From contig OY987273.1 of assembly GCA_963920665.1 (NCBI GenBank), positions 15,378,501 through 15,442,500 on the forward strand: a stretch of DNA of 64,000 nucleotides, read 5' to 3'. The DNA comes from Straminergon stramineum. Lineage: Eukaryota > Streptophyta > Bryopsida > Hypnales > Calliergonaceae. This document shows, piece after piece, positions 26,501 to 60,871 of the stretch (position 1 is the first letter of the stretch; each line of letters starts with the position of its first letter). Both the position numbers and the translations under genes were made by a program. Under the pieces are notes generated by a model, which was given only the letters and a program-made list of their open reading frames with translations, was not told the DNA's origin and ran no database searches.

Positions 26501-26676
26501 CTAGCGTGGAATGATACGTCAGTTACTTAAGGTAAATAAAACTTACCCTTGGAAAAATTTCAGGATCTACGAAATCGAAGTTGGACCAATTGGATGGACC
26601 GCTCGGTTGCCTAGTCCGATTTGTCCATTTGTCTAGGACGTTCGGTGACCTTAACTTGTGTGATGTGACAATCCTA

Positions 26677-38980: not shown

Positions 38981-38986
38981 ACTCAT

Positions 38987-39475: not shown

Positions 39476-39888
39476 TATCGCAAGACGGAACTTGGAATCC
39501 ACCGAGTTAGTATGAAATAGTTTATAATAAGTATAGAATTTTTCAAATTTTTCAATAGGCAAACAGAAGTAGAATCTTCTAAGCATAAACATCGTATTAA
39601 AGCTATGAGGATGATTGAGGTGTTCCGTAAAAGGATCCAGGACAGATCCAAATTCCGAAAACCCGAATAGTGATAGCCTATAGTCTAGAGTTCCAGTCTA
39701 GGAATCTAGGGATCCGTTATGGGGAAACGGTTCACTTCTGGAACGGTTGGTAGGATGACGGGTACTTAACCCCTACCACTCCCATTTCTCCTCCCTCTTT
39801 CTTCTATAGTGGTTTTGTGCTTGTATAGTTGAATGAAAGAGTGGTGAATTAGTGATCATTTCAACAATTCAATTAGTTCCGGTTTACG

Positions 39889-39974
39889 ATGGCAAAGGGA
39901 GATATCCATAAATCATTAGTTACAGCACGGATGGTTTGTCCAACCATTCCAGAAAGGTTGAAGGACTGGTCGTA
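39889..39974 (+). pseudogene. Start of the X2 gene, cut by element C
   Basis: ATG 39,889 begins MAKGDIHKSLVTARMVCPT, the counterpart of the X1 gene start. About 29 codons later it is interrupted by the insertion of element C and resumes at 60,872. Confidence 0.6.
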
Positions 39975-39982
39975 GTTAGAAG
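39975..39982. repeat. Left target-site duplication of element C
   Basis: GTTAGAAG, identical to the copy at 60,864-60,871. X1 has this site once, unoccupied, at 38,476-38,483 (reverse strand). Confidence 0.93.
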
Positions 39983-40156
39983 TAGGGTTGTTCCAGCGGA
40001 CAATTCGACAACTCGACGAACACGACGTCCAACACGTTAAGTAGACCTTCTTGTCTGTCTAATAGAGTCAAACTTACCTTTGACTTTTAAAAAAAATTTC
40101 ACCCTCCCCATGAGGCCACTTGGATGCCATGTGGCAGACACATGTCTTCGATGTAG

Positions 40157-40275
40157 CATCCGAAAGGGGCGCATGCAGGTGTGGGCGACCTCGGGTTTGG
40201 GCGACCATGGGTGTGGGCGACCACGGGTAGGGCGACTTCGGGTTAAGGCTGGTGGGCAACCGCGGGTGTCGAGTA
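40157..40275. repeat. Left subterminal GC-rich array of element C
   Basis: Five to six units of GGGCGACCNCGGGT on the + strand, about 175 bp inside the left terminus. It is the inverted counterpart of the right subterminal array at 60,412-60,660. Confidence 0.75.
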
Positions 40276-40335
40276 CGTGGCAAGCTGTGAAGCAAAGACA
40301 CGAAGTGAGAACCCAAAGAGAAGTAACGCCCCACA

Positions 40336-40666
40336 CACTATAACAAAACATGGTAAAAAAAACCGTAGTCAAAATGGATTATGGTTCTTTTTGCCACGTT
40401 TTTGTGCATGCATGCATAGTGGGCTGGTAGCTTCTTTTGCAATTTTCCACTGAAGTTTTTGGAATTTTGGGGTGTGTAATATACCATTGGAAAGGTCTTT
40501 TAAATACCTTTCCAATGGTATATTGCACGCCCCAAAATTCCAAAAATTGCAGTGGTAAATTGCAAAAAACGTTGGCTGCGCACGTAGTGGGCCTGCACTA
40601 AAACGTGGCAAAAAGAACCATAGTCAATTTTGACTATAGTTTTTTTTACCATGTTTTGTTATAGTG
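40336..40666. mobile_element. CACTA-like foldback MITE, 331 bp
   Basis: Begins CACTATAACAAAACATGG and ends with its inverted copy, with the 3-bp duplication ACA on both sides (40,333-40,335 and 40,667-40,669). The whole length is one near-perfect inverted repeat with arms of about 160 bp meeting near 40,500. CACTA ends and 3-bp duplications are typical of the En/Spm group. It has no coding capacity. It sits between two GC-rich arrays of element C. Confidence 0.88.
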
Positions 40667-40672
40667 ACAATT

Positions 40673-41014
40673 ACCCGCGATCGCCCCCAAAGACCCGCAA
40701 TCGCCTCCCAAGGGACCCGCATGCGCCCGCAAAGACCTGTAGTCGCCCCCCGGAAGACTTACACGTGCCCCTGAAACCACAGTCGCCCCCCAAAAGACCC
40801 GCACGTGCCCTTGGACCCGCAGTCGCCCCGTCCAGGACCCGCACGCGCCCTTGGACCTGCAGTCGCCTCCTCAGACCCGAATGCACCCTACTAGACCCGT
40901 AGTCGCTCCCCGAGATCCGTGCGCACCCCTTAGAGACTACGGGTACAACCGGTGGTCGCCCATCTACACACACCCCATGACCAACTCTCACTCGCGCTCG
41001 CCCCACCTATTTAT
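40673..41014 (+). promoter_or_regulatory. GC-rich array and TATA-like box before the element C RING gene
   Basis: About 15 units of ACCCGCAGTCGCCCCC with variants (40,673-40,965), then TATTTAT at 41,008-41,014. The start codon follows 186 bp later. The C-rich strand is the sense strand. Confidence 0.7.
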
Positions 41015-41199
41015 CCACTCACCCAAGACCTTTTGGGCACCTTTCATTGAGGCTTCTTGTCTTGTATCCTTTAGTGGCTACATGCGTGAACCTTGACTAT
41101 TTACTATTTATTACATTCATCCACCCTTTTTACCTTAGTAGTTGTGGACCACCTAAACTCCCAAACGAGTTTTTTGAGCCTTAGACATGACAATCATTG

Positions 41200-43688
41200 A
41201 TGGCCATTGGAGTTAACAATGCTAGGGCATTGCCTATCTTCGTTGCTGCACAGACTGCCGGGGCATTATGAAAGGCTGCCGAAGACAAACATCACAAGCG
41301 TAGGGGCACTATTCATCGGAAGCGATTGCACGTGCTCAATAGTGAAGCCCACCTTGCTTTTAAGGGTTGGAATGAAGAACCAGAGCCTTGGACAATACAA
41401 ACCTGCGAAGATTGCATCGAGTGGTGCCACATTAGCAAGTTCTTTCCTTTATGGCGTCATCATTATAATCGGCACACCAATAAGGCCAACTTGAAGTACT
41501 CTGAGAATCCAGCATTCCTTCAAAGATGCTTTGAATTGTGGCAAGTCCTCTACAAAATCGCCTTTGTAGATAGGAACGAGGTCCCCCTCTTCCTTGCTAG
41601 AGGAGTATATGCTGAGGTCGCTCTAAACAAAGAGGTTGATTGAAGCACAATCAAGAGAAGTATGTATATCACTTGTCCAGAGAGTGGTTTCATCCCAAGA
41701 GGAGTTCTAGCCTTTCCTAAGGGGGGGACTTGGTCCTATTCGAAGTGCATACAAAACGCAAACCCCTGCCACTGAGGTTGACACTGAGGAGTCTGAAGAA
41801 GATGATGACTCTGATGGTACACGCGTCCATAGGGTCATACGAATCGTGGAGCAATCTGTTTGCCCTAGTGAGGTTTGAAATGAAATTGTAGAAGGACCCG
41901 CGACATCCATGGGACAACAACGAAGGCAACCATCTAGAGTATGGCGTTCAGCAACACAAGTAGGACCCGCATTGATTCCAACTCTAGTTCCTAACTCATC
42001 GTTGCCAACACATCGCACAAATGACGTCTTCGACTTCGGGCCCGATGAGGACATGACTATGGAAGAAACTGACCGTGTTCCCATTTCTCCATCAACAATG
42101 GGCTCAAGCCATGACATTATGACTTTGGCAAAAGCTCTGGACCTCCTCAAGACCAAAGATGTTGAAATTTCTTCACTACATAATGAAATGAGGAAATTGT
42201 GATGTGAGTGTGAACACAAAAGTACACTCATCTCTCAACTACAGAACTACAACGCCTCCGTGAGAAAGACCATGACACTTTCACTTTGTCAGATATGGAT
42301 GATGCCTTTATTGAGCAAAACCTCCAAAATGTGGACAAGGTTGTGGGGGACCTTACCAACCATATCCTTCAGCGTTCTCCTCTTGCCAAGCGCACTAGAC
42401 ACTCCCCCATCATTCCAAATACACTTCCTACTATTGTCACAAGATATACTACCAATGACACAATTGACCTCAATGGGACCCAATACTCTCTTTCGTTTCC
42501 TGTGGTTCCATCAATTATTCAATTGGAGAAAGACCATGGACTTCAAGAAGAAAATAAGATGCTTTGAAGAAAATTGGCTAAGTTGACTGCCACATACTAC
42601 CATTTGAAGGTCGCTTGCATTCTCTCCGTGGATAGATCCCAACAGTTACAAAGGAGCTAGAGAAAGTTTCTAGAAACTTTGTTGCAAATGCTCCTAAATG
42701 TGAGAATGGATTGACGCCATGGGCATTGTTGGAGGACATGTTTTCCAATAACATGTGCATGGTGGAATTGCCACAAAAGGAGGTCATAGATTGGAGCAAA
42801 AATGGTTGGGACCACGAAAACCAAATGTCTAGCCACATAGAAGAGAAGAAACGAATGCTCCTTTGGCCCAAGCCTGCACCTTTTGTTTTGGACCATACCA
42901 AATGCCCCATATGTCTTGAACAATTTGGTCCCGAAGGGGGTTGGGCACTAGGATCTTGAGCACATGTATACCACCCCCAATGTCTCATCACGCAATGCTT
43001 GATTAGACGACGTTGTGTGATTTGTTCACCACCATTCCACGATCGCCTGTATACCATGTTCAACTTGATGACCTACATGCCTCCTTCTTGGGAACACACA
43101 CGTGATACTACAGCTGGCACAACCTTGTGGGGCCGAGATTTGGTTTGGAGTTGGCGAGAAGGACAACATGATCAAGAAAAAGGACCTACTAGCTCGCAAT
43201 TGAATTGGGAAACAGACCCAGACAAAATTGCTAAAGTTGCACCGAGGCTCATGGGAAAGGGGCCACAAAACGAAGGGAGGAGGGCATTCTTCTTCCAATG
43301 CCTTGGTGGATATTGGGACAAGACCTCCTCAACCTTCAACTGGGGTCCTCATCCACAATGACACCGTTGGAATTTAGAAGGAGAAAGGGTGGCTAATCAA
43401 GATGATAGTGCCTCCCTAGAAGACTTGACTAGTATGGCTTACTTGGACTCTATGTACGGACCATATTACCAAAGTCAAGCACTGGACTACTTGTTGGAAG
43501 CACATTCTCCACAAACAACAAGGACCCTCCAAGCTCTACAGGACTTTAACGTGTTGCAATCAATTTTGAAGGTACACAGACTAGCTTCACAAACCCGTGC
43601 AAAGCGAAAGCTAGGGGTTGGGGAAGCATTGACCTACGAACAAGGTGAAGGAAGTGGCTTTCAAAACAACCCAAATGTAATTGACTAG
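41200..43688 (+). pseudogene. WCHI-RING gene of element C
   Basis: ATG 41,200 reads MAIGVNNARALPIF; TGA at 41,269 comes before the conserved domain. The WCHI domain (41,360-41,645) is well kept: LAFKGW, CEDCIEWCHISKFFPLW, FLQRCFELWQVLY and GVYAEVALNKEVD. Frameshifts near 41,720 (a G run), 42,270 and 42,650 break the coiled-coil middle. The RING finger (42,900-43,035) reads CPICLEQFGPEGG, AHVYHPQC and CVIC, but the third ligand codon is TGA. The tail has LMTYMPPSWEH, LVWSW and FFFQCLGGYWD, matching element B, and ends at TAG 43,686. It would act, if intact, like other RING-H2 proteins in ubiquitin transfer (inference). It is more damaged than the kinase and coiled-coil genes beside it. Confidence 0.75.
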
Positions 43689-44923
43689 ACATTCGTAGGA
43701 ATCATGCAATTTAGCCTTACCTCCCATCATAATAGATGACAAGTAAGGGTTAGGTTTTAGTTACACTATGTTTCTAGTTGTTTTGGCAAGTACAATGGAG
43801 TGGTTTAGGGTTTGCTTCTTTCATTCCACTTCTACAACTTCCTAGCATACCTATATACGGCAATTCCATATGGCATCGATTTTTATTTAATACTACCTTT
43901 TTTTCCTCTCTACCAAAGTACCAATTTCTGAAATCATATCGAGAATGATCTTTTCCAGTTCTTCCAAAAATAGATTGTATGAATCAAATCAACAAAGCTC
44001 TTAAAGTTTAACTTTTCAAATTAATTTCACTTGCATTGAGAAGAAAACTAGGTCACTACTCACTAGAGTGGAGCATCATTGTCCAATTGGATATTTCCTT
44101 TCATATTCTTTAAAATCGTGTGGTTCTAATCACAGGAAGCTTTTCCTCTAAGCTTTCAAGATACTTGGCCAAAGAAGGAATAAAAGGGGTTCAAATACAA
44201 CATGCCCCTTTTCGTGGATGTTGACTTGTTGACTTCACATTACCATACCTTCAAATGGTTCACCCTGTCCTTGGAGGTTAAAATTTTGATTCATAAAAAA
44301 CATGAGTAGGCCAACTTACAGATAAAACCTACCTAATTCCTCAATATCCATTGTAATTTTCTTCAAATTACACTAAAGCTAGAATTCTAAAAAATCCTAC
44401 ATACAAGGAGGAACAATGCAGCAAATCACCTGAGACAAATAAGCCCAATAAATTTCCTCAATTAATATAGTATTTTGGTCACAATCAGTTCTTAGTTCTC
44501 CACTATTCATATGAAAATCATAAATACAAGTTGTATTGTAGATTTCATGAGGACATTCTCACAAAATACTATGTCGACTTTTATGGTCAAGAATCAAGAA
44601 CTTTCCATCAATCCCATGTTCCTATTCGATTGTAATTATGTGCGAGAATCCCATTCCATTCATCATACCATCACCTTCTCCCAAAACATGAGAAAGACAT
44701 ATTCATCCATTTACAAAAGTTGTAAGATCCAAAAATGATGTGGCATTTTCTCCCTTCCATGCAAGCCACCAGTGTGCCTTCACCAATGTAACTATTCTAG
44801 TACATACATTGCTTCAAGACACTATATACATTGTTTTATCTCAAAACATTGCATTTCTTTATAACACCATGATAGGCAAAATACAAAATAATCATGGTGA
44901 AAGTATTTATACTCATTATATTC
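43689..44923. other. AT-rich spacer between convergent genes
   Basis: No coding frame with recognisable content; presumably the 3' untranslated regions of the two convergent genes. Confidence 0.45.
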
Positions 44924-46396
44924 CTAGGTATTTAATTTTGTGTTGAGGTAGTCCTTCAAAATGGGCTCCGGATCCATTTGTTGTAATTCTGCATCAAACT
45001 TCCCTATGCTAGCTCTATTCGACTTATACCAATCCGAAAAAAAACGACTTTTTGTCCTCAGAGCTTTCAATTCCGATACCATCAATGGTAATCTTTGCTC
45101 ATGGAACTTCACCAACTTCTCAAGCGATGCTACTTCTCTAGCAACACTACCATATGTTGAGGAAGAAGCCAAAAGCTCTACTTTTGGAACGTGTTGGACG
45201 GTGGCCTCGTAATATTCTTTTTTCTTCTCCATTATTTGAAGTTCTAGGCTTCGCCTTTCATTTTGTGCCTGCTGACGTTTGTGGACAAGGGTTTCGAGTT
45301 TTGATTCCCATATCAAATAATGGTCCACTTTATGCACCTTCCCACTCTTCATTTCCTTCAAATAAAAATCGCAATTTCTTTTGAAGGAATGGAAGCCCTT
45401 GCCATTCTCTTCGATGACATTCGTTATGGCCTTCAACTGTTGCTTCAACACCTCTACAAAGGTGGGATTCATTTCTTGCTCCTTCAAAGTTTTCAATTGC
45501 TCGTTCTTTGCACGCAATGCTAATTTTGCACTTTCTATTTTGGCAAGTAACATTGCCTCTTCATTTTCTGAATCGCTTCCTCCGCCACTCTTGTCACCTT
45601 CTCGCAAAACGAGGTCCACTTTCCTAGCCACCCCATCATCCATGCCTTCTTCATCCGTATCTTGTACTATGATGGGCTCTTGAGCTAATTGTCCACTTTG
45701 GTCAACTCCCACATCCACAGCCGGCCTAGATTCTTATATGGCAACCTCCTCGTTATCGTTGTAGAAAGAATATCCATCGTATTCATGGGTGTGTTGATCA
45801 GAGCTAGAAGTCTCTGACCAAACCACGCTTTCATCGCGAACAAATGACTTCCCACGCTTCACCTTGGATAACATCTTCTTTACATCCACAAGTTCATCTG
45901 GTGGTAAAATTTTTGCAGTCTCCAGAATGATCGCAATAGGGACCTCCTTAAATGTAGACCAATCCACCTCCTTCTTCAATACATATTCAGCATACACCTT
46001 TCTCACAAGAAAGAAACAGAAATTGTCATTTCGGTAAGTTGAGTCCTCCAAATACAAGTGCTTCCACACCTCACAACATCTAAGTATGAAGCCCTTGTCC
46101 TTGGAGTATGGAAGATTTACTTTGTTTTGCTTCAAATGTTCTTTGTGCTGACACAAGGGAAATAATTTGCTGATGTGGCACCAATCCACGTATTTGCAAA
46201 CTGTTTTGCAACTTGAAGGCTCAAGTTCATTTCTCCAACCTTTAAATGCCTTAATCTTTGGATGGATCAAAATGGCCACATGCTTCTTGTGAATTTTACC
46301 GAACCATTTCTGACCCTTGTCGCAGATGAGCTTCATCTCTTGTCGTGTAAGGCGTTTGATTGTGGCAGGCGTCAATGGTGGGGGCTCATTCTCCAT
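44924..46396 (-). pseudogene. WCHI coiled-coil gene of element C, one nonsense codon from intact
   Basis: ATG 46,396 (MENEPPPLTPATIKRL) opens a 491-codon frame interrupted only by TAA at 45,734-45,736. The WCHI domain covers about residues 45-160: IKAFKGWRNELEP, CKYVDWCHISKLFPLCQH, FILRCCEVWKHLY and KVYAEYVLKKEVDWSTF. An acidic, Ser-rich linker (about 185-260) precedes a long coiled coil from about residue 275 to 470 (EEAMLLAKIESAKLALRAKN, then VASLEKLVKFHEQRL). No enzyme motif is present. A scaffold or dimerising partner of the WCHI-RING protein is a reasonable guess, not shown. The upstream array is at 46,715-47,065. Its low decay compared with the transposase of the same element is notable. 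Translation could be near full length in a sister copy. Confidence 0.8.
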
Positions 46397-46714
46397 AGTG
46401 CTCAATCTATACGATCAATTGTACTCGGATACTATGCCAAATATACCAAGCCTAAACCTTGTTGTACAAACTTAAATCTATTACCTCGTGGTAATTCACA
46501 TTTACAAATACATCAACATGAACATTTACAATCACAATCAAGTTTCAAACAATTCCGCATGATTTACAATCAATGGATGAAAGTGACATGAGGAGACATA
46601 GAATATCTTCCTCACAACACCCACCTCCCCTCTCAAGCCTGCAATTAGCCACTTCCAGGTGGATAAAAGACAAGGCGCAAAAGGGAAAGATGGGAGACTA
46701 TGGGTTTAGGCTCT

Positions 46715-47065
46715 GATTTTGTACCCGCAGTCGCCTTAGGGCGAGCGCGGCTCTAGATGGGGAACGTGCGGGTCCACAAGGGGAGGCGCGTGTGGGTTAG
46801 GAAGGCAACCGTAGGTCTAGGACCACAGCCAACGACCGCGGGTGATGGCGACTGCGGGTTTGGGGCGACTACGAGTCTGGGGTAACCGTAAGTGAGGGGA
46901 ACCCCAACTGGGGGCACGTGCAGGTCTGGGCGATTGCGGGTCTGGCACAACCACAACTGGGGGTGCTTGCAGGTCTAGGGCAACCGCGGGTCAAGGGCAA
47001 CTACGACTGGTGGGCGCGTGCGGGTCTGGGGCGACCGCGGGTCCCAAACCCCCGACTGCGACAAT
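46715..47065 (-). promoter_or_regulatory. GC-rich array before the element C coiled-coil gene
   Basis: About 16 units of GGGCGACCGCGGGTCTG on the + strand, C-rich on the gene's sense strand, about 320 bp before ATG 46,396. The segment at 46,632-46,679 between array and gene (TTTTATCCACCT, AAGTGGCTAA) closely resembles the one before the kinase gene. Confidence 0.7.
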
Positions 47066-47324
47066 ACATACCTTCACTGAATAGTGAAATTAGATTGCCT
47101 TAACAATTAGATTGACTTACCCCCAAATGGACCATGAAAAGAATTCATATTCAAACCCAAATGCATGCAAGTAGGTGATGTGTATGTACAATACTCAATA
47201 TTTTCGGTCCAAACATGCACTTCACATTAAAAATAGTTTATACACTTGCATTGCTTTTCCAAAATGAGATGCACAAAAGGTGGCCAACGTTACTATTCCT
47301 GCTAGAAAACTATTACATCAAATC

Positions 47325-48914
47325 CTATGAGAGGACAGAGTCCTGAAAGACGAATTCGGGTGGTTTCATGAACCATGGTTTACCCATGAGGAGGTCCACC
47401 ACTTGCGCACATGTTGGTCTTTTGTTAACATCAGCATCAGCTAATTCACGTAACTTCATGGCAAAGTACCTTGATGACTCATGATTTCTAAATAAGTTCT
47501 TGTCGTATTCAACCATGTGTTCTATGTTCATGCGTTGGGTCAACTTTCCAATCGAATAAGAGTCGGACTTCACCAAATATTTGTAGGTCACTTTCATCAC
47601 ATCTAGACTCGTATCTAAACCCTTTGGCCTAAACAAATAGAACAACTCTGGAGCTGCCCACCAACGGCCCATCCTCTCACTATCAAGTTTTTCCTGTTTT
47701 TCATATCCCAAATGCGAGGGAGCTCCTTCTTGAATACGACTTGCAATTCCCCAATCACAAATCCCAATGTTGATCTCTTTGTCCGAGAAGGGGGGATAAT
47801 GCAACAATATGTTCACAGGTGACAAGTCATTGTGCAGCACCCCTGCATTGTGCACGAGACTTGTCACATAAACTAGGGCCCACGCCAACTTTGCCTTGTG
47901 TCTTCGAAAGAGGCTAATTTCTTTTTGTTGTTGGCCTGTAAGTTGCTTGACCAACTTGATTTCATGCCATTCCGCATGCGGCACCACCTTCTCATTCAAA
48001 TGAAGCAACTCTTTGAAATTACCACCATTCCACCACAAAGTGTATGCTTCCATTGTTTGGTCATGGATAGCTAGGAATTTAATAATGGCCGGATGATTCA
48101 ACAGGCATACCAAAGCCTCCACTAACCATTCCACCCTCGCATCGCATTTGTTCCTTTGCTTTGACAATTTCCCCAGAAAATGTACATGTGTTGGGATCGT
48201 GGACATCCCTTCAATGCATACCTTGCACACCTTTGCATATCCTCCTTGACAGTCAAATCCAGTAAGTGGGACCACCTTGGCCTTTGAGTAGACCCACATG
48301 ATACATGAACCACTATCTCTTGTAAATGCAACCTTGAATGCATCCGTCTGCCACCCCATACCCCTAGCTTCAGACCTTGACAATCTTTTTGCTGCAATTT
48401 GCCACCAATCCATCTTCTCACGGAACTCCTAGGCCCTATCCGTTTCTCCAAATCCAGGCACTATAGGTCGCAACTCAAGCATCAACTTGTTGGTGTTGAA
48501 TATACCAGTTTGTAGGCAATTGCCAATCCACGTTTGCCATTGGTTGAAATACACTTCATCCACATCTGCATAGTCCGAAGATTCCTTGCATTTCCTTGTA
48601 ATACATTCGTCCAACTCATCCTTCAAGGATTGGATGCCTGCCTCTTTATTTCTCAAGTATTTCCTCTCCAAATATTGTACACTTTTTTCCTCATACCATT
48701 GGAGACAAGCCTCATGCGCATAGGTCCTATATCGTGTTGGAGGATAGGTAGGGTCCTTATCGTGTGCTGTCTTGGACTTCTTTGTCTTGGATGGTCTAGC
48801 ACCCCCAATTACCTCCTTGGTAGTTATATCTACAACAAATGCTACAGGATTATCAAGGTCCTTGTCCCAAGCCAATATCCAACGTGTACTACTTCCTTCC
48901 TTTGAAATAGACAT
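47325..48914 (-). pseudogene. Atypical protein kinase of element C, one nonsense codon from intact
   Basis: ATG 48,914 (MSISKEGSSTRWILAWDKD) opens a 530-codon frame with a single TAG at 48,429-48,431, where a Gln codon would fit. The first 160 residues form a charged helical region (YAHEACLQWYEEKSVQYLER). The kinase domain (about 200-520) shows GGYAKVCKV as a degenerate Gly loop, FLGKL with the likely beta-3 Lys, VLHNDLSPVNILLH (catalytic Asp and Asn kept, HRD changed to HND), ICDWGIA for DFG, AAPELF for APE, SDSYSIG, and KRPTCAQVVDLL with the late Arg. Key catalytic residues are therefore present, so an active Ser/Thr-type kinase is possible in an unbroken relative. The same gene lies in element B. 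An earlier in-frame ATG at 49,022 exists, but 48,914 fits the array-to-gene spacing better. Confidence 0.82.
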
Positions 48915-49004
48915 GGTCCTCTTTTGAAAAACGAGGCGTTCTTGACTTGAACTTGGAGAGAAAAATGGGCAAAAACTTCCCCTTCTGAAATCACCTTGGC
49001 CCAC

Positions 49005-49225
49005 GAGCACGCATTCAGCCACTTAAAGGTGGATGTAAGCCAATGCGCAAGACCAAGAATGGCGACCGCGGGTCTGGGTGACCGCTTAAGTACTCGAGGT
49101 CGCCTTGGGGCGCGTGCAGGTCTAGCACATGCGAAACGGGCGACCGCGGGAGGGGGCGACTGCGGGTTTCAGAGGTGCTCACGGATGGAGGCGACCATTG
49201 GTGTAGGGGCGACCGCGGGTCCGAA
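49005..49225 (-). promoter_or_regulatory. GC-rich array and proximal promoter of the element C kinase gene
   Basis: Six to eight units of GGCGACCGCGGGTC on the + strand (49,060-49,225), then a proximal segment (49,005-49,048) with TTACATCCACCTTTAAGTGG on the sense strand. It ends about 90 bp before ATG 48,914. Confidence 0.68.
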
Positions 49226-50227
49226 GAGGATGGACCATCATAAATAATAGCTAAAAGAAACCTTCATATGGAGTAGAAACATTGGCATTACAACTTCCCA
49301 CTTCTATTTCACTTGCTTTCAAATAAAATCATAAGACCACTATGATATGGTCTAGAATGTGGAATTAGATTTTGAGTTGTTTCTTTATGGTTTCAAATAT
49401 ATGACTACAATGTTCACAAAGAAAAAAAAAGAATGGGCCAAAACGGAAAAAGGGAATCAGAAATATAAAAGTATGGGACATGATTGACTTCTATTGAAAC
49501 AAAAAGGGAGAACTGGAAATACTTACATTCTACCATTGCATAATAATATTATAGAGGTTACTTTAGAAGTGTCCAAAGTCTTTTTCTAATTTCTTCAAGT
49601 TTGCTCTACATTGAACATGAATTCGGCTTTTTTACACAACCCTAAACCCTTTTGGGGTGGAAGAGGTCATAAATGCAAACATACATGTTGCAGAGCATAT
49701 TGAAATGAAAAATAAATGAAGCATATGCACATCAAGTCAAAAGATTGTTATCCTTGATGAAGACATTGTTCAAACCATCAAGGGTGTTTGAATGCTGTCA
49801 TTTCTTTTTTTTCCATGCCAATCCTTCAAAATTGGTCACCCACAAGATACAAGAAATTTCTAAATGGACAAGTGGGACACCTTCGAAATCATCTTTCTTA
49901 GACGTTGTAAATTGTTAAGTTACAAATTATAGATGTGGTCTTCGGAAGTAAACTTTCCAAGGAGGACCACCCCTTCTTACACTACAAAATTTACAAAATG
50001 AAGAGATGCTCTTCTATCATGTGTAGAGAGTTTCTATTATATATGGACTCAAAATTAGCCACCTAATCATTTAAAGATGAAGAACCGTCACATGCAAATC
50101 CTTATACAATGTACGATTTCTTTGGCTAAGTATTCTATGGAGGACATTCAATATGTTCTTGTAAAAGCTATCCAAGGTTTACTTCAACTTTTGTATACAA
50201 AAAATAATCTCTCTCAAAAGAGACAAA
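49226..50227. other. AT-rich spacer of element C
   Basis: No coding frame or repeat recognised. Confidence 0.4.
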
Positions 50228-50479
50228 ACGTCAAGTTTGGTCACTCCGATAGGTGAGCAAGAAACATCATTTGATTCCCAAGATTTAGGAGACGTACTAT
50301 GAGGGTTTAGACGGTTAGTATTGAGTTTAGAACGGAGATGTATGAGGTGCAAGGTTGCACCACACACATCTCTGTCCTAAACTCAATACTGATTTCTTAT
50401 AACTCTCATGGACCATCCCCTAGACCTTGAGAATCAAATCACCTTCCCTCCCACATACCACAGGGAATTAGCTTGACGT
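50228..50479. repeat. 252-bp imperfect foldback
   Basis: Begins ACGTCAAG and ends CTTGACGT. Arms of about 110 bp pair with moderate mismatches; the inner 25 bp (AGTATTGAGTTTAG... with its inverted copy at 50,366-50,390) are nearly perfect. No clear target duplication. It could be a MITE or a hairpin RNA precursor. Confidence 0.65.
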
Positions 50480-50699
50480 CTTTTTTTTTTCTTTTTTGTT
50501 GGTTGGCTACAAGAACCAAACCAAATTGATCTCATTGGGGATCAAACCTGAGACCTCCACAAGAACAATGACTTCCAGGAAGCCAATAACTTCCATGCAT
50601 CACCTGAAGATGCCTTGAAGACCCCAAGGTCCTAATGAAGTGACTTGTTCTTGGATGTTAAGAGTTGAAATCATTATACTTATTAAAACTTCTTTGGAT

Positions 50700-51655
50700 T
50701 AGAAGGCACGCCCCCACCCGCAGTCGCCCAGGACCTGAAGTCGCCCCCACCCGCAGTCACCCCCCATTCCACCAAATTGGGCTCAAAACCACTAGGACCT
50801 GAAGTCGCCTCCACCCGCGGTCGCCCAAGACCTGAAGTTGCCCCCCACCCGTAGTCACCCCCCATTCCACCAAATTGGGCTCGAAACCACCAAGACCTGA
50901 AGTCACCTCCACCCGCGGTCGCCCAGGACCTAAAGTTGCCCCCCACCCACGGTCCCCCCCCCATTCCACCAAATTGGGCTCGAAACCACTAGGACCTGAA
51001 GTCGCCCCTATCGGCAGTCGCCCAAGACTTGTACTCACTCCCCACCCGCAGTTGCCCCCCATTCCACCAAACTACGCTCCACAACCACCAAGACCTGAAG
51101 TCGCCCCCACCCACGATCGCCCAAGACCTGAACTCGCCCCCCACCCGTAGTCGCACCTCATTCCACCAAATTGGGCTCAACAACACCAAGCTAGAAATCC
51201 AACCCCCACCCGCAGTCGCCCAAGACCTGAACTCGCCCCCCACCCACAGTCGCACATCATTCCACCAAATTGGGCTCAACAACACCAAGCCAGAAATCCA
51301 ACCCCCACCCGCAGTCGCCCAAGACCTGAACTCGCCCCCCACCCACAGTCGCACATCATTCCACCAAATTGGGCTCAACAACACCAAGCCAGAAATCCAA
51401 CCCCCACCCATGGTCGCCCAGGACCTGAACTCGCCCCCCACCCACAGTCGCCCCTTTCCACCAAATTGGACTCAACAACACCAAGCCAAAAGACCAAGCC
51501 CCCACCCATAGTCGCCCAAGACCTGAACTCGGCCCCCACCCACAGTCCCCCCTTTCCACCAAATTGGGCTCAACAACACCAAGCCAGAAGACCAAGCCCC
51601 CACCCGCGGCTGCCCAAGACTTGAACTCGCCTCCCACCAGTAGTCCCCCCTATCT
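50700..51655. repeat. Higher-order minisatellite, about 99-bp period
   Basis: Each unit joins one or two CCCGCAGTCGCCC motifs to a fixed spacer (CCATTCCACCAAATTGGGCT and a CAACACCAAG-type stretch). AGAAATCCAACCCCCACCC recurs at 51,193, 51,292 and 51,391, giving a 99-bp period; earlier and later units are more diverged. About nine units are present. Proline-rich or Gly/Trp-rich open frames across it are by-products of the repetition, not genes. Confidence 0.85.
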
Positions 51656-51854
51656 TGAAGTCACGCCACTCTTGAAACCAACGTAGCAGAAGATGTGAGC
51701 CATCTCCAACACTAACGAAGTCAAACTTAATTGCGTCTTCCATAGACTTCAACTGACTTGTCCTTCAATGTTGGTAGCTAGTTAATACTACAAAATTAGT
51801 CTATAAATACAGAATTATAGTAAGACTAATTAGACAAATTGAAGAGGGTTTTCC

Positions 51855-51903
51855 AAACCCTAAACCCTAACCCTATACCCTAAACCCTATACCCTAAATC
51901 CTA
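51855..51903. repeat. Interstitial plant-type telomeric run
   Basis: About seven CCCTAAA-like units (some CCCTATA or CCCTAA) in element C, downstream of the 99-bp array. The telo-box AAACCCTAA is included; another copy lies near the right end at about 60,739-60,750. Confidence 0.7.
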
Positions 51904-52639
51904 TAGAAAAACCATGGACCTTTTCCATGTATGCCACTCCAAAAGTAATGTATTTCTATATTTTAAGGTGGATAAAATGATAAACACATGTGATTTGCTT
52001 TTCATTATATGTCATAAAAAAGTTTGAACTCCTAAACCTTGCACTTGTAAGATATAAACCATTGAAGGTGTCATTTCTGAACTTTTTCATCTTCAATAAA
52101 GTCAATATTCATTCACCCCTTCAAATGTGTTTTAAATCCCCTTCATGTAATAAGGGGAGGACTATATTGAAATTCCTATGTTGGAGGATGGAAAATGAAA
52201 TGACAAGGAGAAGGGCTTCCCCAAGTCTCCATTTTTAAAAACCACTTCTTATGTAGATCAAAAGATTTTTTTCTTCATGCATCTCACGTTGATAGTATTT
52301 TTTTTGTACATCGTTTCCTCCCACAAGGAAAGGTCTCCTCTTAATGTACTCCCTCCAAAAATTAAAGTAGGAAATGGTTACGTTGAATTTTACATGACCA
52401 CATGGATGGATGAAGAAGAAATAAAATGTTAGGAAGAAGGGCTTTTCCAAATCTCCACTTCCTCAACCAATTTTCTTTCTTTATTACTTAATTAACTTTT
52501 GATCACTTAGTATTGAATGCCTCAGTCTTAGGATTTTCTAGAGTTAATCCTCAAAAAAGGGGGGAGCGGTACTTGAAAAGTTTGAACACCTTCCCTCCAA
52601 TTTGTTAGGGGGGAAAATCAAACTCATGTTTTTTGGCGC
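51904..52639. other. AT-rich spacer of element C
   Basis: No coding or structured feature recognised. Confidence 0.4.
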
Positions 52640-53070
52640 CCCTAACCCGCGGTCACCCCATACGCAACCGCCCCCATCGTCATGAATTGGAAGACCTTTC
52701 AGAATCTGAGACCCGTGGTCACCCAAGAAATGACTTGTGGTCGCCCTATATGCAGCCACCCCCTGTACTTGCGGTCGCACCATTACCCGCGGTCGCCCAG
52801 GAAATGACCTGTGGTCGCCTTATATGTAGTCGCCCCCTGTACCTGCGGTCGCCCCATTATCCGCAGTCGCCCAAGAAATGACATGTGGTTGCCCTATATG
52901 CAACCACCTCCATATACCCGCGGTCACCCTGCACCCGAGGTCTCCTTCTAGAAACTCTAATTTTTCCTGAATGGCAGTTTCTAGACAGTGGGACCTAGAC
53001 CCGTGGTCGCCCAAGACCCGCACGCGCCCTCTTCCTGCACGCGCCCTAGGCGACTTCGGGTATTTAAGGG
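52640..53070 (+). promoter_or_regulatory. GC-rich array and TATA-like box before the second coiled-coil gene
   Basis: About 18 units of ACCCGCGGTCGCCC and variants, including a near-duplicate block around AAGAAATGACTTGTGGTCGC that recurs at about 52,728, 52,800 and 52,872. TATTTAAG at 53,061-53,068 follows directly and lies about 200 bp before ATG 53,266. Confidence 0.7.
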
Positions 53071-53265
53071 GATACTGGATTCCCAAGTCGTCACTTCCTT
53101 CGTTGCACCGCGCCTTTAATCCGCCTTGAAGCGTTTGATTGCCAGTTCGTCGGTTGGAAGTTTGGGCATCTACACGTGTTGTGGCTTCCACATTTACGAA
53201 TTCATTTCTTTGGTTATATTATTGACAAAGGTCTAGTTCTCTTTACGCTAGAGTGACATGACAAG

Positions 53266-54843
53266 ATGACGAAGAAGAAAGGAGATTGCCATAGCAGGCA
53301 ACGACGTCCCCTTCTTGACCCAGCGGCTAAGGCATATAGGGGATGGCGTCATGTAAATTCCGATTGGACCTTGACGACTTGCAAATTATTTGTGGATTGG
53401 TGCCATATCAACAAGCTATTCCCTTACCATCAACACATTCACCATGTAAAGCAAAACCAAGAAAATTTTCATTACTGCAAGGATGATGCATTTGTCTAGA
53501 GATGTATTGAAGTGTATCGAGCATTGTACGAAAAGCGAAAAATTCCATGGAGCGAAGTCTCAATGGGTATATGCCAAATGGTATATGCAGAGTAACAATT
53601 GGGGAAAACGATAGATTGGATGACCTTCAAGACATCCAAGAATGTCACGCTTCCAACTACGAAAGACATTCCAAGAGCAGGTCCTTCAAATAATCCTTGG
53701 GATGGGCTAGGGTCCAAAAAGAACATTATAGAAGGAGTGGCAGATGAGAATTATGTTTGGTCAACGTCAACTGGAGAATTGAACTCCGATGAAGAGCCAT
53801 TGCCTGAACCTAGGGACAAGATGGAAGATACATCAATGGAAGAAAACTTAGCATTGGTGGTATCAGAAGAAGGCAACATGCAATGGACCACACCAATGTA
53901 TGGAGAACCTTTTATGTCTGTGGAACCGATAGGGGTCCGTAGTCTTGAAGATGACGAAGTGTTCCATTACGTGCAAGCTCACTTGCAAGAAATTAATGAA
54001 GATAGGTTGGATGGGGAGAGTGAAGTTGAAGAAGAGATTCCTCTGACCTTGATGAATTTGCCTTCCATGGAAGGATTGCGTGAAATGGAACAAGAACATC
54101 AAGGTGTACTTGGAGAAGACAATAATCGGCGGACAAAAGAATCCTTTAAAGTAGAGTTGGAGGTACTTTTAAAGGATCTTGAAGAAAAAAAAAGGGAGTG
54201 TAGGATCATCGAGAAGTGAAACGCACAAGAGATTCAGGTTGAGGATGTGGGCACCCTCAAAGAACTAATTCAAGCTAGACAAACTCGTTTGGCAGCCCAA
54301 CAAAGAGAAATGGAACAACTGGAACAATTTTACCTCAAGTTCAATAAGGGAGAAGATGGAGGTTCCAGTTCAAATGTCAATCCTGTTATGAATGAACGAC
54401 TTCAAACAATAATGGGAAAATGTAGGATGGAAGGAAACAACCTTGCCATTGAAAAAGGAGGTGTGGAAAAGGCAAGATCGACATTGAACCACTTGAAGGA
54501 GATGAAGGATGCAGATCCTATTGACCAGTCGTTGCAATCGGATTCATTGTCTGTGGATGTTGAAGATTTGTCATCCACTACGGAAATAGAGAAGTTGAAG
54601 ATGAAGTTAGCTTTTGTGAAAAGATTGGAACAAAAGATGGAGGAAAAGATGTCCTAGCCAAAGGCACACATTAGGTTCATATCATTGTTCAAGAAGTGGT
54701 GGATCCAAAATAAGATGTGGATCCAAAATAAGATGTGGAACCATGACCTGACTCTTTTGAAGAGGGAAGAGAGAGTGGCAAGAGCCCGAATAGAACTAGA
54801 AAAGAAGAAAAGGGAAGAACAAGGGGAAATGGATGGAGTATAA
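53266..54843 (+). pseudogene. Second WCHI coiled-coil gene of element C
   Basis: ATG 53,266 (MTKKKGDCHSRQRR) begins a 526-codon frame with four stops (TAG 53,497; TAA 53,593; TGA 54,217; TAG 54,655) and no frameshift. The WCHI domain (residues 20-120) reads AYRGWRHVNSDWTL, TCKLFVDWCHINKLFPYHQH, RCIEVYRALY and MVYAE...IDWMTF. An acidic linker (about 150-270) is followed by two coiled-coil blocks (KVELEVLLKDLEEKKRECRI and QQREMEQLEQFYLKFNK). Near the C-terminus an 18-bp unit is doubled (WIQNKMWIQNKM), and the protein ends in a Lys/Glu-rich helix. It is a paralogue of the minus-strand coiled-coil gene of the same element. No equivalent was found in element B. Its function is not known. Confidence 0.75.
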
Positions 54844-55714
54844 ATTAGGTGGCTTTTGTTTCTTTTATGACTATGTACTTCTTCCAAGATATATGAAAAA
54901 AAAGGCTTTGTCCTTATTTTTGTTGAAATACAAGAATGTTTATTTTTATTTTTTGTGTATGAAAATGTAATTGCATTTGGATCCAAACATTTGAATTTTT
55001 GACAAATTTTGATGATTTCAAGTTATGTGAATGTTAATTTCTTGTTAAATTTGTGTAGTGTTTTAAAAAAAAAAAAGAATTCTAGTAACTTTGAGTCTAC
55101 ACAAAGAACCCTCAATAAATTTAAGCTGGATCATCCATGAGAGTTTCAATATAAGTTCATATGGTTGCATTTTTCTGTATTTTAACATATGGTTTGAACA
55201 TATTGTAAATGACAACATTCCCATGCCCTTCACCTCGTGAATGTATGGACTCTTCTTGAGATTTATAATTTGGGAAAAAACATCATAAAAAGGTACTCAA
55301 AAGAATACTTTTGGAATTGATAGAGAAAAGGAAGTTATACATTTTGAGTTGTGGATTCCATGTATATGGTTTGATCAACCAATGTTGTCCCCCATTTTTC
55401 TTTTTAATTTGAAAGAGAAAGTTCTTAATTTTTTCCACATTTGAGTACAAGCTAATTCTATTTATTTTTTATTAAGTTTGTTGGAATGGATTTGAAATGA
55501 GTTTCCCTTCATGTAGTTGTTTAAAGAAAAATTGTATTCTTTAAGTCTATGACCATACTCCTGAAAATCTTTTTTTGAAGTATCTATAAATACCATGTCA
55601 AACCCTTGGATAGCATTTAGGGTTTAATAAAATCTCTATCTAAACTAGGATGACTTTCATCTAGAAACTCAGTGATGGAATGCTAACGGGATAACAAAAA
55701 TGGCCTTGGGTCCT
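54844..55714. other. AT-rich spacer of element C
   Basis: AT-rich, probably 3' untranslated sequence followed by spacer. No coding content recognised. Confidence 0.4.
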
Positions 55715-56040
55715 AAGTGTAAGCGCGGTCGCCCTTCAAGTACCTGAAGTTGCCTCTTCTCTTGAGACCCGCGGTCGCCCCCTTCTACCCGCAGTCGCCC
55801 CCCTAGACCCGGAGTCGCCCCCTTCTATTCGCAGTGGCCCCCCCGAGACCCGCAGTTGCCCTCCCTTCCACCTGTAGTCGCCCCCTGGACCTGCACTCAC
55901 CCCCCCGACCCGCAGTCACCTCTTTTTTGACCCGCAGTCGCCCAGGGGGCAAGTGCGCCTGTTACGAGGTCGCCTATTTCCTGCACACATTCAAGCTCTT
56001 AGGGGGCGACTTGCGATGCTAGCAGGACGGCAATATAAAG
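55715..56040 (+). promoter_or_regulatory. GC-rich array and TATA box before the element C transposase
   Basis: About 14 units of GACCCGCAGTCGCCCCC and variants (55,715-55,965), followed by TATAAAG at 56,034-56,040, about 225 bp before ATG 56,265. Confidence 0.75.
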
Positions 56041-56264
56041 CTGAAGGCCCGGACTTTGGTTTTCACCTTGCTTCGGGGATGAACTCATGGCTTGAATCTT
56101 CGAAAGAGGCTTCTTATGGATGTTTGGTTCTTTGGAGGGCAACGACTTGGTTTGCGTGATTTAAAAGACCGTTCAAAGCAAGTGGCTTTGCCACTCTTTT
56201 TTCTAAATCAAGGCTCTGATTCATATGATAATATTGTTTTAAGAACTCATAGGCGAGGAACAAT

Positions 56265-59200
56265 ATGGCTAGTCGAGGTGAGGGGAGGAGGACTACCATT
56301 AACGATACAAGGAGAGCCACGAAGGAGTGGGACCCTTGGTTGGTTGTAGACATTGATTGTCAATTTGTGGGAAACACACGAACATGTGTTTTCTGTGGGT
56401 GGACCTTCGTGTTTGTATGAAAGCGGGCATTCTATCACTTTGGATTTGGCGGCAGGACTGCATCAGAGCGATGTAAGAAAATCCCATGGGCAGTATTGCA
56501 AAAGTTTAGAACTTGTCGTGGGGTTGTTTTGAAGGAAATGAGCTTTGAACAAATGCATGAGGATATTCCCGAATTTGATGATGTAGATGAGACTGTGGTA
56601 GAGCCTATGTTGGAGGGGGGTAGGGAGAGGTCAAAGGAGCCTAGTGCTATGAATGAACCAATGCTCCCTATTACAAATTCAGGAGATTCCACTCCTCAAA
56701 CAATTTTGAGAAGGAGGAAGAACCCTTCCATTTCTAGGCAAACTAGCATGGATGAGGCATTACAAAGTAGCACGAGAGCAAAGTTGGATACCATGTGGGC
56801 TTCCTTTTTTTATGAGGCTAGCATCGTATTCAATGTTGTGCGCCATCCTGCCTTTGTGAAAGCAGTGAAAGAGACAGCGGCATCAGGACTACGATACCAA
56901 CCGCCCTCATACAATGCTTTGCGTATAAGAATGATAGAGCCAAAGAAAGAAAGTGTTTCTAAAATGGTCACTGAGTGGACAAAGCACTCTATCGAAGTTT
57001 ACGGAGCGACTATTTGTTCGGATGGTTGGTCTAATACTACTAGCTGTCCATTATTGAATTTAATGCTGGTGTGTCTTGCAAGGGATGTGTATCTTGGATC
57101 GGTGGACACCACGGGGGAGAAGAAGGACATTGCGTACACAACCAATATGATGGCGCAATACATAGAAGAGGTTGGACCCAAAAACATTGTCCAACTATGT
57201 ACGGACAATGTCGTTGTCATGACAAGGACTTTGAAGGCGTTACAAGAGAAATATCCTCACATGTATACCCAAGGATGCGCAACACACATTTTGGACTTGC
57301 TTTTGGAAGACTAGGCAAAGGATGTCAAGGTAACGAGAATAGTACGACGTTGTACGCAGATAGTAAAGTACATCAAGAGGTACCATTCCACATTGGCTCT
57401 CTTCCGAAAGTACTCCCCGGACAAGGCATTGTGAATGCCTTCTAAAACATGCTTTGTAGTGAATTTCCTCATGATATCGCGTGTGGTGGAGTGCAAGTCA
57501 GCATTGATTCAAGTGATAATGGATGAGACATATGTGCAATTTGAGGCTAGTTTGGAACGTCACCAAAATGGTGATATATTGAGAGTGCGAGCCACTATAG
57601 CGCGGAATGACATTCATGCGGAATCTTTTTGGGTGGAGTGTGAGAATTTTTTGCACATGGTGGAGCCCGTCATTATTGCTCTCCGAGTGTTTGATGGGAA
57701 AGCCCCGGCAATGCCTAAGGCTTGGTTGGTTATGTAGACTCTTCAAGAGCACGTGTGGAGCTTGAGAAACGAACCTTTTTTTCTGAATGATGAAACTGCG
57801 ATAAACTTTGAGAAGCATTTCGAGGCTTGTTGGAAATTAATGCTCACAAACCTACACTATGTAGGGGCACTCTTAAATCCTTTCTTGATTGAAGTAGGAA
57901 CCCTTCGTAACGACGGTGTGGCCAAAAAAGCCTTAAATCAGGTGCTTCGAAAAATGAGCGAGTCATTGGGATTATCATACATGGAGGCATTGCAGGAGCT
58001 CACGTAGTTCGAAGAGAAGACATGACCTTTTGACCCCTTAGAAGAGGCTCCTAATATTACACAGTGTAAACTAATGCCTCATCAATGGTAGAATCTTGTG
58101 GGTGCTAATGTTCTCCCAAAAATTGCAATGAGAGTTCTATCTTTGACATGTTCAGCATCATCATGTGAAAGGAATTGGAGCATGTATTCGTTTGTGCACA
58201 ATAAAGTGCGAAATCGCCTAACCACATCCAAGGCGGAAGTATTGGTGTATATCTACACCAACAGTAAACTTGAACGTGAAAAACGTGGACGCAATCTTGC
58301 AATGTTCTACGAAAAGTACCTTGTGGATGGAAATACCTCGGAAGAGAATGAGGAGCCATTAGGTACTAGATCATCAGGGGATGGCGACCTAGTCAGAATG
58401 GCTCGAGCTAATGAGAACGTTAGGCTGGAAGAAGAGCGCCTACATGGAAATATTTGGACACGACTAAATCGTAGAGAAAAGAGTCCTCCATGGAGACACA
58501 ACTATGGAAATACATTTACAATTGAGAATAATATGTACTACTTTGAGGAGGAGGAGGTTCAACGTGCACCGCAAAGGCCCCCACAACCGTACGTCTCTAC
58601 TAGGGATAGGAATGTACCTCCTCCAATAAATTCATCGCCAACGAGGGCAAGTAGTCCCAACAACCCCAATAAAGGCATAAATAGTCCAATGCTCACAAGA
58701 GCTGAAGAAGCAAGATCTCCAAATGTTGTAGATTAGGGTTCTACAAGGGTAATGAACCTACGAAGCACCGCTCGAGTTGCTAAGGTAAACGAAAGGCAAG
58801 AGGAGGCAACACCGCCAACAAACGTCGAAGATGTTGTGCATACAAGCATTCCACTTTCTCCATTACAGAGCCCCTTAAGAATAGAAAATGTGGAATATGA
58901 TTCAGACTTGCCCTTGCAAGCTGTTATGAACCGGAATCGTACGGTGCCCTTAAGTGGAGGAGGAAACGCAAACAATGCTAGGGCAACTAGGTCTATACCA
59001 ACCCGTGCGACTAGGCCGCCCTTGCATAATAGTCCTCTTAGGGCAATTGATAATGAAGTCCATGCCTCAGCTCCGCAACCCACTCAACCCTCCTCAATTT
59101 CTAGCCCTAGAGAATCATCCTTGCTCGTGCATGAAGGCACAAGAGGACAGAAAAAGCGATTGAGGAAGACACAGGAGAGGCTGCAAAGAAATCCCAAACG

Positions 59201-59543
59201 ACAAAACCATGTTGTCCAAAGATTCATCATGGGTGAAGCCAATTCCAATTGAAACATCGGGCAATCCAGTAGAGGCAAACGACACCCTACATCCAACCTT
59301 GATGGAACAAGAGATGCATTGAGGTTGACTAAATGATTGGTGCAAACTAGCGGCGACGGCGTCGTGGATATTGAAGTGCGGAACATGAACTCAAAGGTAG
59401 AACATGAAGTGCAAAATGAACGAGTACGAAGGGAGGATGACGAGAATGATAACCATGATGATAATGAAAGGGTGGAGGGGTCGGATGATGATTCTGACCC
59501 TGACGCTGATAAGGTGCCTAGTGATTACACATTTTCACTGTAA
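56265..59543 (+). pseudogene. hAT transposase of element C
   Basis: A single frame of 1,093 codons with no net frameshift but ten stops (TGA near 56,418; TAG 57,312; TGA 57,429; TAG 57,735 and 58,005; TGA 58,023; TAG 58,089 and 58,734; TGA 59,250 and 59,334). A BED finger (CVFC, residues 43-46) is followed by the DUF659-like core with CSDGWSNTTSCPLLNLMLV (first catalytic Asp), LCTDNVVV (second) and GCATHILDLLLED. The middle insertion region and the dimerisation domain follow (VLSLTCSASSCERNWSMYSF, HNKVRNRL, LVYIYTNSK, about 58,130-58,270). A 420-residue tail, Arg/Pro/Ser-rich then Asp-rich (DDENDNHDDNERVEGSDDD), is much longer than in usual Ac-like proteins. The enzyme class explains the 8-bp duplication of the element. 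Confidence 0.88.
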
Positions 59544-60411
59544 CTTTATAAATATAGATTTAGAGGTAGTGAAGTGGTAATGTAATGCTTTTGCATAATT
59601 TTGGTGTGTTGAAGTTTTCTAGCTTAAGTTCATAGGCAAATAGCTTATAGATGAATTTTGTGTAGTATCTACTTTAGTATGAAAGCATAATAGTGTTAGA
59701 ATTACAAAGTTTTGTTCACTGTCTTTAGTGTGGACTTCTACAGGTATAGACGTGGAGATCTTAACAAAGTTCATGGAAGTACAATTGAAGTAGAAGTTCA
59801 TTTATAAGATTGGGTCACTACTCTATTAGTGCGTACAACTTATAAATACAGTAATACTAATTATCCTTACTTTTTTCTTGTTTTTGTATCTATTTTTGGT
59901 GTAATTATTAAATCCAATTGCGATATTGGCTTATACACTTCAATCGGAGTAGAAAATTTGAATTAGAAATTCCTAACCATATGTAATAAAAAAATGTAGA
60001 TCTCGGAGGCTCCTATGAATGAGTGAATGAGCACAAAATGTGAAGTACTTAATTTAAGGCTTAGGAGAATGCAATGGCACATGGAAACTGAAGGATCCTA
60101 AATCATGAGCAAGATTGAAATGGTTGTTATATCTATATTTGCAATTGCAACGGCACACGAGGTTGCTCTTAACCTTTAACAGATGGACTAGTGAGTATGA
60201 AAATCATCTCCAATGGAACTATGTGATGTGATGTGATGTACTTGCCTTTCCCCTCACAAAAATACTCATTTCCGGTATGAGGACTTAGTAAGATCTCTTT
60301 TGGGGAATTGGGACCCAATTTTCAAAGATGGACAATTGCATTTATGTCGTATATTAGAAGTTCTTATCATCCAGGGAACAAAAGAAATTCCTTGCGTATG
60401 GGATAAAGCCA
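59544..60411. other. AT-rich 3' spacer of element C
   Basis: No coding or structured feature recognised apart from a short GATGT run near 60,226-60,240. Confidence 0.4.
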
Positions 60412-60660
60412 AGATCGCCCTTTTCCTTACACTCGTGGTCGCCTTTACACCCTTAGTCGCCTTGAATTGGACCCATAGTTGCCCTGGGTTGGATCCACAA
60501 TCGCTTGGATTTTGGACCCACAGTCGCCCTCATTTTGGGACCCGGGGTCGCCCCACCGTACCCGCAGTCGCCCTTAGTTGGACCCGAAGTCACCCTCATT
60601 CTCGGACCCGTAGTCGCCCCACCTTACCCGCACATGCCCCACCCACAGTCGCCTATGGTG
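60412..60660. repeat. Right subterminal GC-rich array of element C
   Basis: About ten units of ACCCGCAGTCGCCCT and variants on the + strand, ending 200 bp inside the right terminus. It is inverted relative to the array near the left terminus. Confidence 0.75.
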
Positions 60661-60863
60661 ACGTGGTCAAAGCTTTCCACGTTACTGTTGACAACCCGCC
60701 ACGTAAGATAAAATTTTTGGCTGCCCTGCCCGAATACCCTAAACCCTAATTTCGCACTCGTCAAATTTGTCTTGTATATGCTACACTCGTCTTATACGAC
60801 ATGCAACATCAGACGAACAACTCGACACCCAAACCCCAAAACACGTTCGACAGAACAACCCTA

Positions 60864-60871
60864 GTTAGAAG
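60864..60871. repeat. Right target-site duplication of element C
   Basis: GTTAGAAG, identical to the left copy at 39,975-39,982. Confidence 0.93.

Follow-up and report, generated by a model that had tools for sequence, protein, structure and literature searches.

The window analysed here is a 64,000-nucleotide stretch of the Straminergon stramineum (Bryopsida) genome (assembly GCA_963920665.1, contig OY987273.1, positions 15,378,501 to 15,442,500 of the forward strand), and all positions below are counted from its first letter. It holds element I, a unit of 20,881 bp with five genes (A to E), which is very probably a decayed member of a numerous family of very large hAT transposons, of the cut-and-paste type and with several genes each, here called family I; hAT transposition of this family is well supported. 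We give about even chances to a wider reading in which these elements form an undescribed giant hAT lineage organised as a small regulatory network, with a fixed module in which the transposase is joined by a kinase, a RING protein and a duplicated, novel family of putative DNA-binding proteins, one motif serving both ends and promoters, and replacement of the motif, and presumably of its reader, between sister families. A preliminary description of the region, made from the sequence alone, had claimed the insertion, a 20.9-kb unit with five genes and an assignment to hAT, and these claims stand; it did not include the motif arrays, the family size, the decay, a nested CACTA-like insert or the second and third gene sets.

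Insertion site and termini

39983..60863, + strand: element I, whole element, 20,881 bp
39983..39993, + strand: left terminal inverted repeat, TAGGGTTGTTC
60853..60863, - strand: right terminal inverted repeat, TAGGGTTGTTC
39975..39982: left copy of the 8-bp target duplication, GTTAGAAG
60864..60871: right copy of the 8-bp target duplication, GTTAGAAG
38476..38483, - strand: paralogous empty target site in X1, reading CTTCTAAC on the + strand

By direct reading of the window, element I is bounded by 11-bp inverted ends and an 8-bp duplication. It is located in X2 (39491–39982 and 60872–63873) and the empty site is located in X1 (35482–38967), X1 and X2 being inverted copies of one segment, each about 3.5 kb long, about 84% alike and about 0.5 kb apart, and both lying inside the transposase gene of the gene set described below as set III. 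The X2 flanks, minus the element and one duplication, align with reverse-complemented X1 in a single unbroken high-scoring segment pair of 3,126 bp with 84.3% identity, and the insertion, its duplication and the paralogous empty site can be read directly, as first described. A frame in X2 (61778–62272) has no Pfam match above the cut-off.

The 11-mer alone occurs at chance level genome-wide, with 229 forward and 234 reverse matches versus 210 and 234 for the reversed control. A scan of the window for a perfect 8-bp duplication with a 12-bp inverted end, at most one mismatch and a span of 1.5–62 kb lists four pairs, three of which are X1/X2 mirror positions and the fourth element I, and relaxing the scan to two mismatches adds five pairs, two of them X1/X2. 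The ends of element I are insufficient alone; combined with the 8-bp duplication they are distinctive within the window.

Family I in the genome

The genome searched comprises 326 Mb, and the results below concern the best 40 of 773 candidate places for the left end (350-bp query), the best 40 of 965 for the right end, the best 88 of 1,446 for gene B and the best 68 of 979 for the transposase, so that some linked pairs were missed. The left-end matches, the window's own place aside, show 91–95% identity. The left end is mostly CATGGTTGTTC (29 of 34 family ends scored) and the right end mostly CAGGGTTGTTC (20 of 33), and the family ends are thus asymmetric; the "perfect ends" of the preliminary description apply to the window copy and are not general in the family. 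The short terminal inverted repeats are of the YA.GG type found in the hAT superfamily.

It had been noted at the outset that ends never paired elsewhere would speak against an element; this was tested, and the outcome did not refute it. Among the 40 left and 40 right ends scored, eight properly oriented left-right pairs, the window copy included, lie less than 40 kb apart with lengths of 12.2–21.9 kb. The target duplication, which in hAT elements has 8 bp, is perfect in four of these long pairs, agrees at 7 of 8 bases in two and is missing in two, and each of two short derivatives (L050 and L063) has a perfect 8-bp duplication. The target sites carry T at position 2 in 40 of 67 and A at position 7 in 32 of 67, where some copies are entered at both ends and the flank background is 0.319 for T and 0.297 for A; this is the nTnnnnAn preference of the Ac-like hAT group.

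Two further copies could be followed over their whole length, c1 (C1, 19,881 bp, perfect 8-bp duplication CTCTTTGC) and c2 (C11, 21,907 bp, perfect 8-bp duplication CTGTAGTG). Both are collinear with element I from end to end, mostly at 91–94% identity and lower across the tandem array, c1 being without about 2.1 kb of the kinase region, and the five genes have identical order and orientation in all three copies. At 19.9–21.9 kb with five genes, they are not the small single-gene autonomous elements expected of Ac-like hATs.

Gene B copies are near full length in all of the 88 places scored (93–98% identity), and the transposase copies are near full length over a 652-residue query in 68 of 68 (94–100%). 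A gene B match lies no more than 30 kb away, with the side and strand expected, at 43 of the 68 transposase matches, the controls giving one (same strand) and none (wrong side). For 26 of the 40 left ends gene B is also present nearby in the expected orientation, at a distance of 4.5–4.7 kb in 25 cases and with no match in the left-end controls, as it is for 13 of the 40 right ends, at 6.0–18.3 kb.

Genes of element I

41200..43687, + strand: remnant of gene A, A/B/D domain and RING-H2-like finger, about 830 codons in other copies
44936..46396, - strand: gene B, A/B/D domain and coiled coil, 487 codons
47328..48914, - strand: gene C, divergent protein kinase, 529 codons
53266..54839, + strand: gene D, A/B/D domain and coiled coil, about 520 codons
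56265..59540, + strand: gene E, hAT transposase, 1,092-codon frame

The five genes have no apparent introns, each being one long frame that is interrupted in some copies by single stops. Gene E encodes a BED-like finger (by eye), DUF659, the hAT dimerisation region and a long tail. The window gene has Pfam matches above the cut-off for both DUF659 (5.7e-31) and Dimer_Tnp_hAT (7.1e-06), the domains of a hAT transposase, and DUF659 is also above the cut-off in a 652-residue transposase piece of c1; together with the 8-bp duplications and the ends, the transposase domains uphold the classification as hAT. The stretches ICSDGW, LCTDN, GCATH and SASSCERNWS can be read in the window copy and are candidates for the catalytic D, D and E and the CxxH positions.

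Gene C matches Pkinase above the Pfam cut-off. In the sequences P0061, P0064 and P0085 the glycine loop, K, E, HxD...N, DxG and APE are complete, as in the protein kinase superfamily, and the catalytic residues are retained; the family signatures HND and DWG replace HRD and DFG, and the window copy reads GGYAKV in the glycine loop. Searches of other assemblies found 63 kinase homologues, several of them with full-length open frames.

Genes A, B and D share a region of about 150 residues with 39–43% identity and conserved Trp, Cys and His, and in the RING-H2-like part of gene A the C3H2C3 spacing is complete by reading. Genes B and D (487 and 519 codons) are both open in c1, and gene B is open in c2 too. 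Twelve homologues of gene B were found in other assemblies, at 40–51% identity apart from the near-identical P0049, several being full-length open frames.

The 14-bp motif

40183..40267, - strand: left subterminal motif array, 4 motifs, 4 of 4 outward
40673..40908, + strand: motif array upstream of gene A, 9 motifs
46723..47042, - strand: motif array upstream of gene B, 7 motifs, 6 in gene sense
49060..49220, - strand: motif array upstream of gene C, 4 motifs
50716..51551, + strand: central motif array, within a tandem repeat of about 98 bp
52645..53061, + strand: motif array upstream of gene D, 8 motifs, 7 in gene sense
55767..55943, + strand: motif array upstream of gene E, 7 motifs
60516..60654, + strand: right subterminal motif array, 6 motifs, 6 of 6 outward

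A 14-bp motif, ACCCGCAGTCGCCC, has 63 matches with at most two mismatches in the window, and all 63 are inside element I; 100 Markov shuffles give a mean of 0.02 motifs per element length and a largest count of one. In the 700 bp that precede each of the five genes there are 35 motifs altogether, 33 of them in the sense of the gene. The same layout is found in c1 and c2 with 91 and 92 motifs, gene B of c1 excepted.

Element II and set III

11875..26676, + strand: element II, a divergent second element resembling element I in kind, 14,802 bp, ends CAGGGTTGTCA and TAGGATTGTCA, duplication 7 of 8, motif GTCCACGCC
12599..14178, - strand: element II kinase gene, broken
14869..17190, + strand: element II gene A, broken, shared domain and a region matching the RING part of A
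20548..21276, - strand: element II B/D-type gene
22241..24153, + strand: element II transposase
30302..32745, + strand: set III gene A remnant, same kind as gene A
34446..63986, + strand: set III transposase, split by X1 and X2 into 34446–35475, 38987–39475 and a part from 63870 to beyond the window

Protein searches in the window show that the gene kinds of element II are 26–49% identical to the family I proteins and stand in a different order. Its ends were chosen from six pairs scanned, two of which tied at three mismatches in all, and the pair resembling family I was taken. With at most one mismatch to CAGGGTTGT and C fixed, the end control returns nothing in either the real or the shuffled sequence; allowing Y at position 1 recovers the real pair, with a pair arising in 0 of 200 shuffles, or in 1 of 200 at two mismatches, these controls having been designed after the fact.

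Element II has its own motif, GTCCACGCC, with 23 matches inside the element versus four outside it in the window at up to one mismatch. The subterminal matches all point outward (left 4 of 4, right 5 of 5), nine of the ten between the kinase gene and gene A are in the sense of gene A, and four of four upstream of the transposase gene are in gene sense. The divergently transcribed kinase gene shares the array of gene A, with one motif in kinase sense, and at the B/D-type gene no array of this motif is seen. Since the motif was picked from the regions upstream of A and E of element II, the 10 and 4 matches there are partly circular, and the nine subterminal matches are independent of its choice.

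Set III, consisting of a gene A and a transposase gene, is a third and older gene set, located at 30302–63986 and at L080 (1–320). Its element ends were not found in our analysis.

Decay and selection

Read in one frame each, the genes of the window copy contain 43 (A, frameshifted), 1 (B), 1 (C), 4 (D) and 10 (E) stops, showing that element I is decayed; judged by these stops, the window copy is predicted to be inactive. Elsewhere in the genome, stop-free copies account for 32 of the 88 scored places of gene B and, over the 652-residue query, for 13 of the 68 of the transposase, one of these being the place of the query itself. Two blocks contain 495 sites at which the window copy departs from both c1 and c2, and 273 of these are of the C-to-T type; such differences also prevail among the private changes of c1 and of c2. 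The comparison has no outgroup and c1 and c2 are close sisters, so the excess is unpolarised; it would be compatible with decay driven by methylation.

Possible mechanism and alternative explanations

The presence in element II of the same gene kinds, a motif of its own and a similar layout indicates that the gene set is old and that motif and reader probably co-evolve, pointing to a lineage of multigene hATs and not to a single hAT that picked up cargo. On the simplest account, this hAT lineage has carried its module of accessory genes for a long time, and the motif, which differs between sisters, would be both the end-recognition site and a promoter element. The transposase of gene E would cut and join by hAT chemistry, and an element-encoded DNA-binding protein, either one of the A/B/D proteins or gene E's product through its BED-like finger, may recognise the 14-bp motif, so that one protein-DNA code could mark the ends for assembly and also switch the genes of the element in concert. 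The kinase and the RING protein might act on host or element proteins, and could thereby release silencing, control the activity of the transposase or turn proteins over. The insertion, the family, the gene module and the layout of the motif are shown directly; binding of the motif by an element protein and these roles of the kinase and the RING protein are inferred.

Several observations weigh against this account or narrow it. The counts for the family rest on the best 40–88 of 773–1,446 candidates; 25 of the 68 transposase matches have no gene B within 30 kb among the best 88 of 1,446, two of the eight long left-right pairs have no target duplication, and the evidence for kinase linkage comes from element II, c2, part of c1 and the window copy. 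The longest contig of P0050 (B-like) and that of P0064 (kinase) both measure 6,460 bases, a hint of a shared contig that is given no weight, since P0055 and P0074 have 2,045 in common, which is too short for both genes and shows that equal lengths can be coincidental. In c1 the 700 bp before gene B contain no motif, the neighbouring stretch being deleted. For the truncated transposase frame of c1, Dimer_Tnp_hAT is below the cut-off (17.0 versus 21.4), and c1 reads ICSNGW at the place of ICSDGW in the window copy, indicating that even open copies may be inactive. The zf-RING_2 match of gene A (E 5.1e-05) is below the curated cut-off (23.9 versus 27.3 bits), and the A/B/D domain has no Pfam match above the cut-off. 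Structure models of the A/B/D proteins are of low confidence (mean predicted local distance difference test score 58.6 for full-length and 66.2 for domain models), Foldseek gives no match at E <= 0.001 and the gene B profile has no match among PDB sequences; the fold can therefore not be named. Finally, the differences between c1 and c2 are about equal at the three codon positions, which means that the genomic copies show no selection after insertion, and long-term selection is suggested solely by the open homologues in other assemblies.

The strongest competing explanation, which we consider unlikely without being negligible, is that the motif arrays are promoters or enhancers read by the host, or GC-rich, methylatable repeats that are targets of silencing, and are carried along by descent. 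The arrays are indeed GC-rich and partly tandem, with a central array of 98-bp repeats, and the prevailing C-to-T-type differences (the unpolarised 273 of 495 sites) would suit such targets. The outward symmetry at the ends and the gene-sense orientation upstream of the genes, however, fit a dedicated reader better, as does the fact that element II has another motif, similarly laid out.

An ordinary hAT that captured host genes as Pack-type cargo, with A to D as passengers without a role, is improbable. Host genomes commonly contain protein kinases and RING proteins, and foreign filler within hAT ends is described for maize Ds2 elements (PMC3260210). Passengers would not be expected to recur as the same gene kinds at 26–49% identity in element II, or as full-length open frames among the B and kinase homologues of other assemblies; moreover, the ends and the promoters of all five genes share one motif, and gene B is near full length at every one of its scored places. 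A segmental duplication or an assembly join in place of transposition is scarcely credible, for although the flanks are an inverted duplication, where assemblies can fail, the exact 8-bp duplications are not the same in different copies, units of similar length are present on several chromosomes and an uninterrupted paralogous site exists; an assembly join is countered indirectly, by collinear copies elsewhere that have different duplications.

Relation to known transposons

The hAT elements are textbook one-gene cut-and-paste transposons, and family I is far more elaborate than the one-gene hATs of maize. Ac (PMC3260210) is 4.6 kb long, gives one transcript, encodes one transposase and carries hexamer repeats within its terminal 200 bp, and maize Ac/Ds shares with family I the 11-bp C/TAGGG... 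ends, the 8-bp duplications, the repeats in the terminal 200 bp (transposase-binding in Ac) and short internal-deletion derivatives. Hermes likewise has 8-bp targets of the nTnnnnAn type, and its BED finger reads subterminal repeats, but it has a size of about 3 kb and a single transposase of 612 amino acids (PMC10368747). Family I differs from Ac in its length of about 21 kb, in its five genes, in a motif that is longer and GC-rich, and in having arrays upstream of the genes.

CACTA elements have 3-bp duplications and CACTA ends, and in Spm TnpA acts at the promoter. Membership of family I in CACTA (En/Spm) was considered and is ruled out by the 8-bp duplication and the YAKGG ends. The CACTA transposase is of the tnp2 type, unlike the hAT transposase of family I, and the likeness is one of size and layout. 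The soybean CACTA element Tgmt* (20.5 kb) is similar in size to family I and belongs to this other superfamily, an example of how long plant DNA transposons can become, and in large plant CACTA elements such as Tgmt* and maize En/Spm an element-encoded protein serves subterminal repeated motifs (PMC2613891).

ToxhAT of fungi, of about 14 kb, is a hAT-named unit of many kilobases that carries another gene; it moves the virulence gene ToxA between species, and the beginnings of the abstracts do not mention a multi-copy family with a conserved gene set or a motif code (PMC12506042, PMC11857905). Starship, Teratorn, Polinton/Maverick and Helitron are large and carry several genes, like family I, and unlike it use a tyrosine recombinase, piggyBac or other machinery, according to a 2019 review, where the word hAT is absent from the main text (PMC6431247). 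Among the titles and abstract beginnings listed by searches of open-licence PubMed Central papers, no multigene or giant hAT of this kind is described, which is weak evidence of absence.

If the proposed account is true, a hAT lineage that retains four accessory genes, a kinase and a RING-like protein among them, and uses one private motif to mark gene starts as well as both ends would alter the notion of a hAT element. Sister elements with different motifs in one window constitute a testable system, where the reader protein could be found by a swap. A kinase and a possible ubiquitin ligase on a DNA transposon would suggest an active manipulation of host control, which to our knowledge is rare outside viruses. 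Annotations may record such elements, with 43 linked transposase and gene B matches here, as host genes of the kinase, RING and DUF659 kinds scattered over the genome.

Nested inserts and minor observations

40336..40666: nested foldback insert, 331 bp, CACTA-type inverted ends CACTATAAC..., 3-bp duplication ACA

The site of this insert is empty in all of the 29 other left-end loci compared. At 50269–50439 element I contains an inverted repeat that is imperfect (about 171 bp, 76%) and is possibly another nested small insert. At L019 two family I left ends stand face to face within 3.3 kb with unequal flanks, perhaps as a foldback derivative; this locus was set aside from the analysis. Telomere-like CCCTAAA/TAGGGTT repeats are located at 51856–51905, in element I, and at 29566–29607, near the start of set III.

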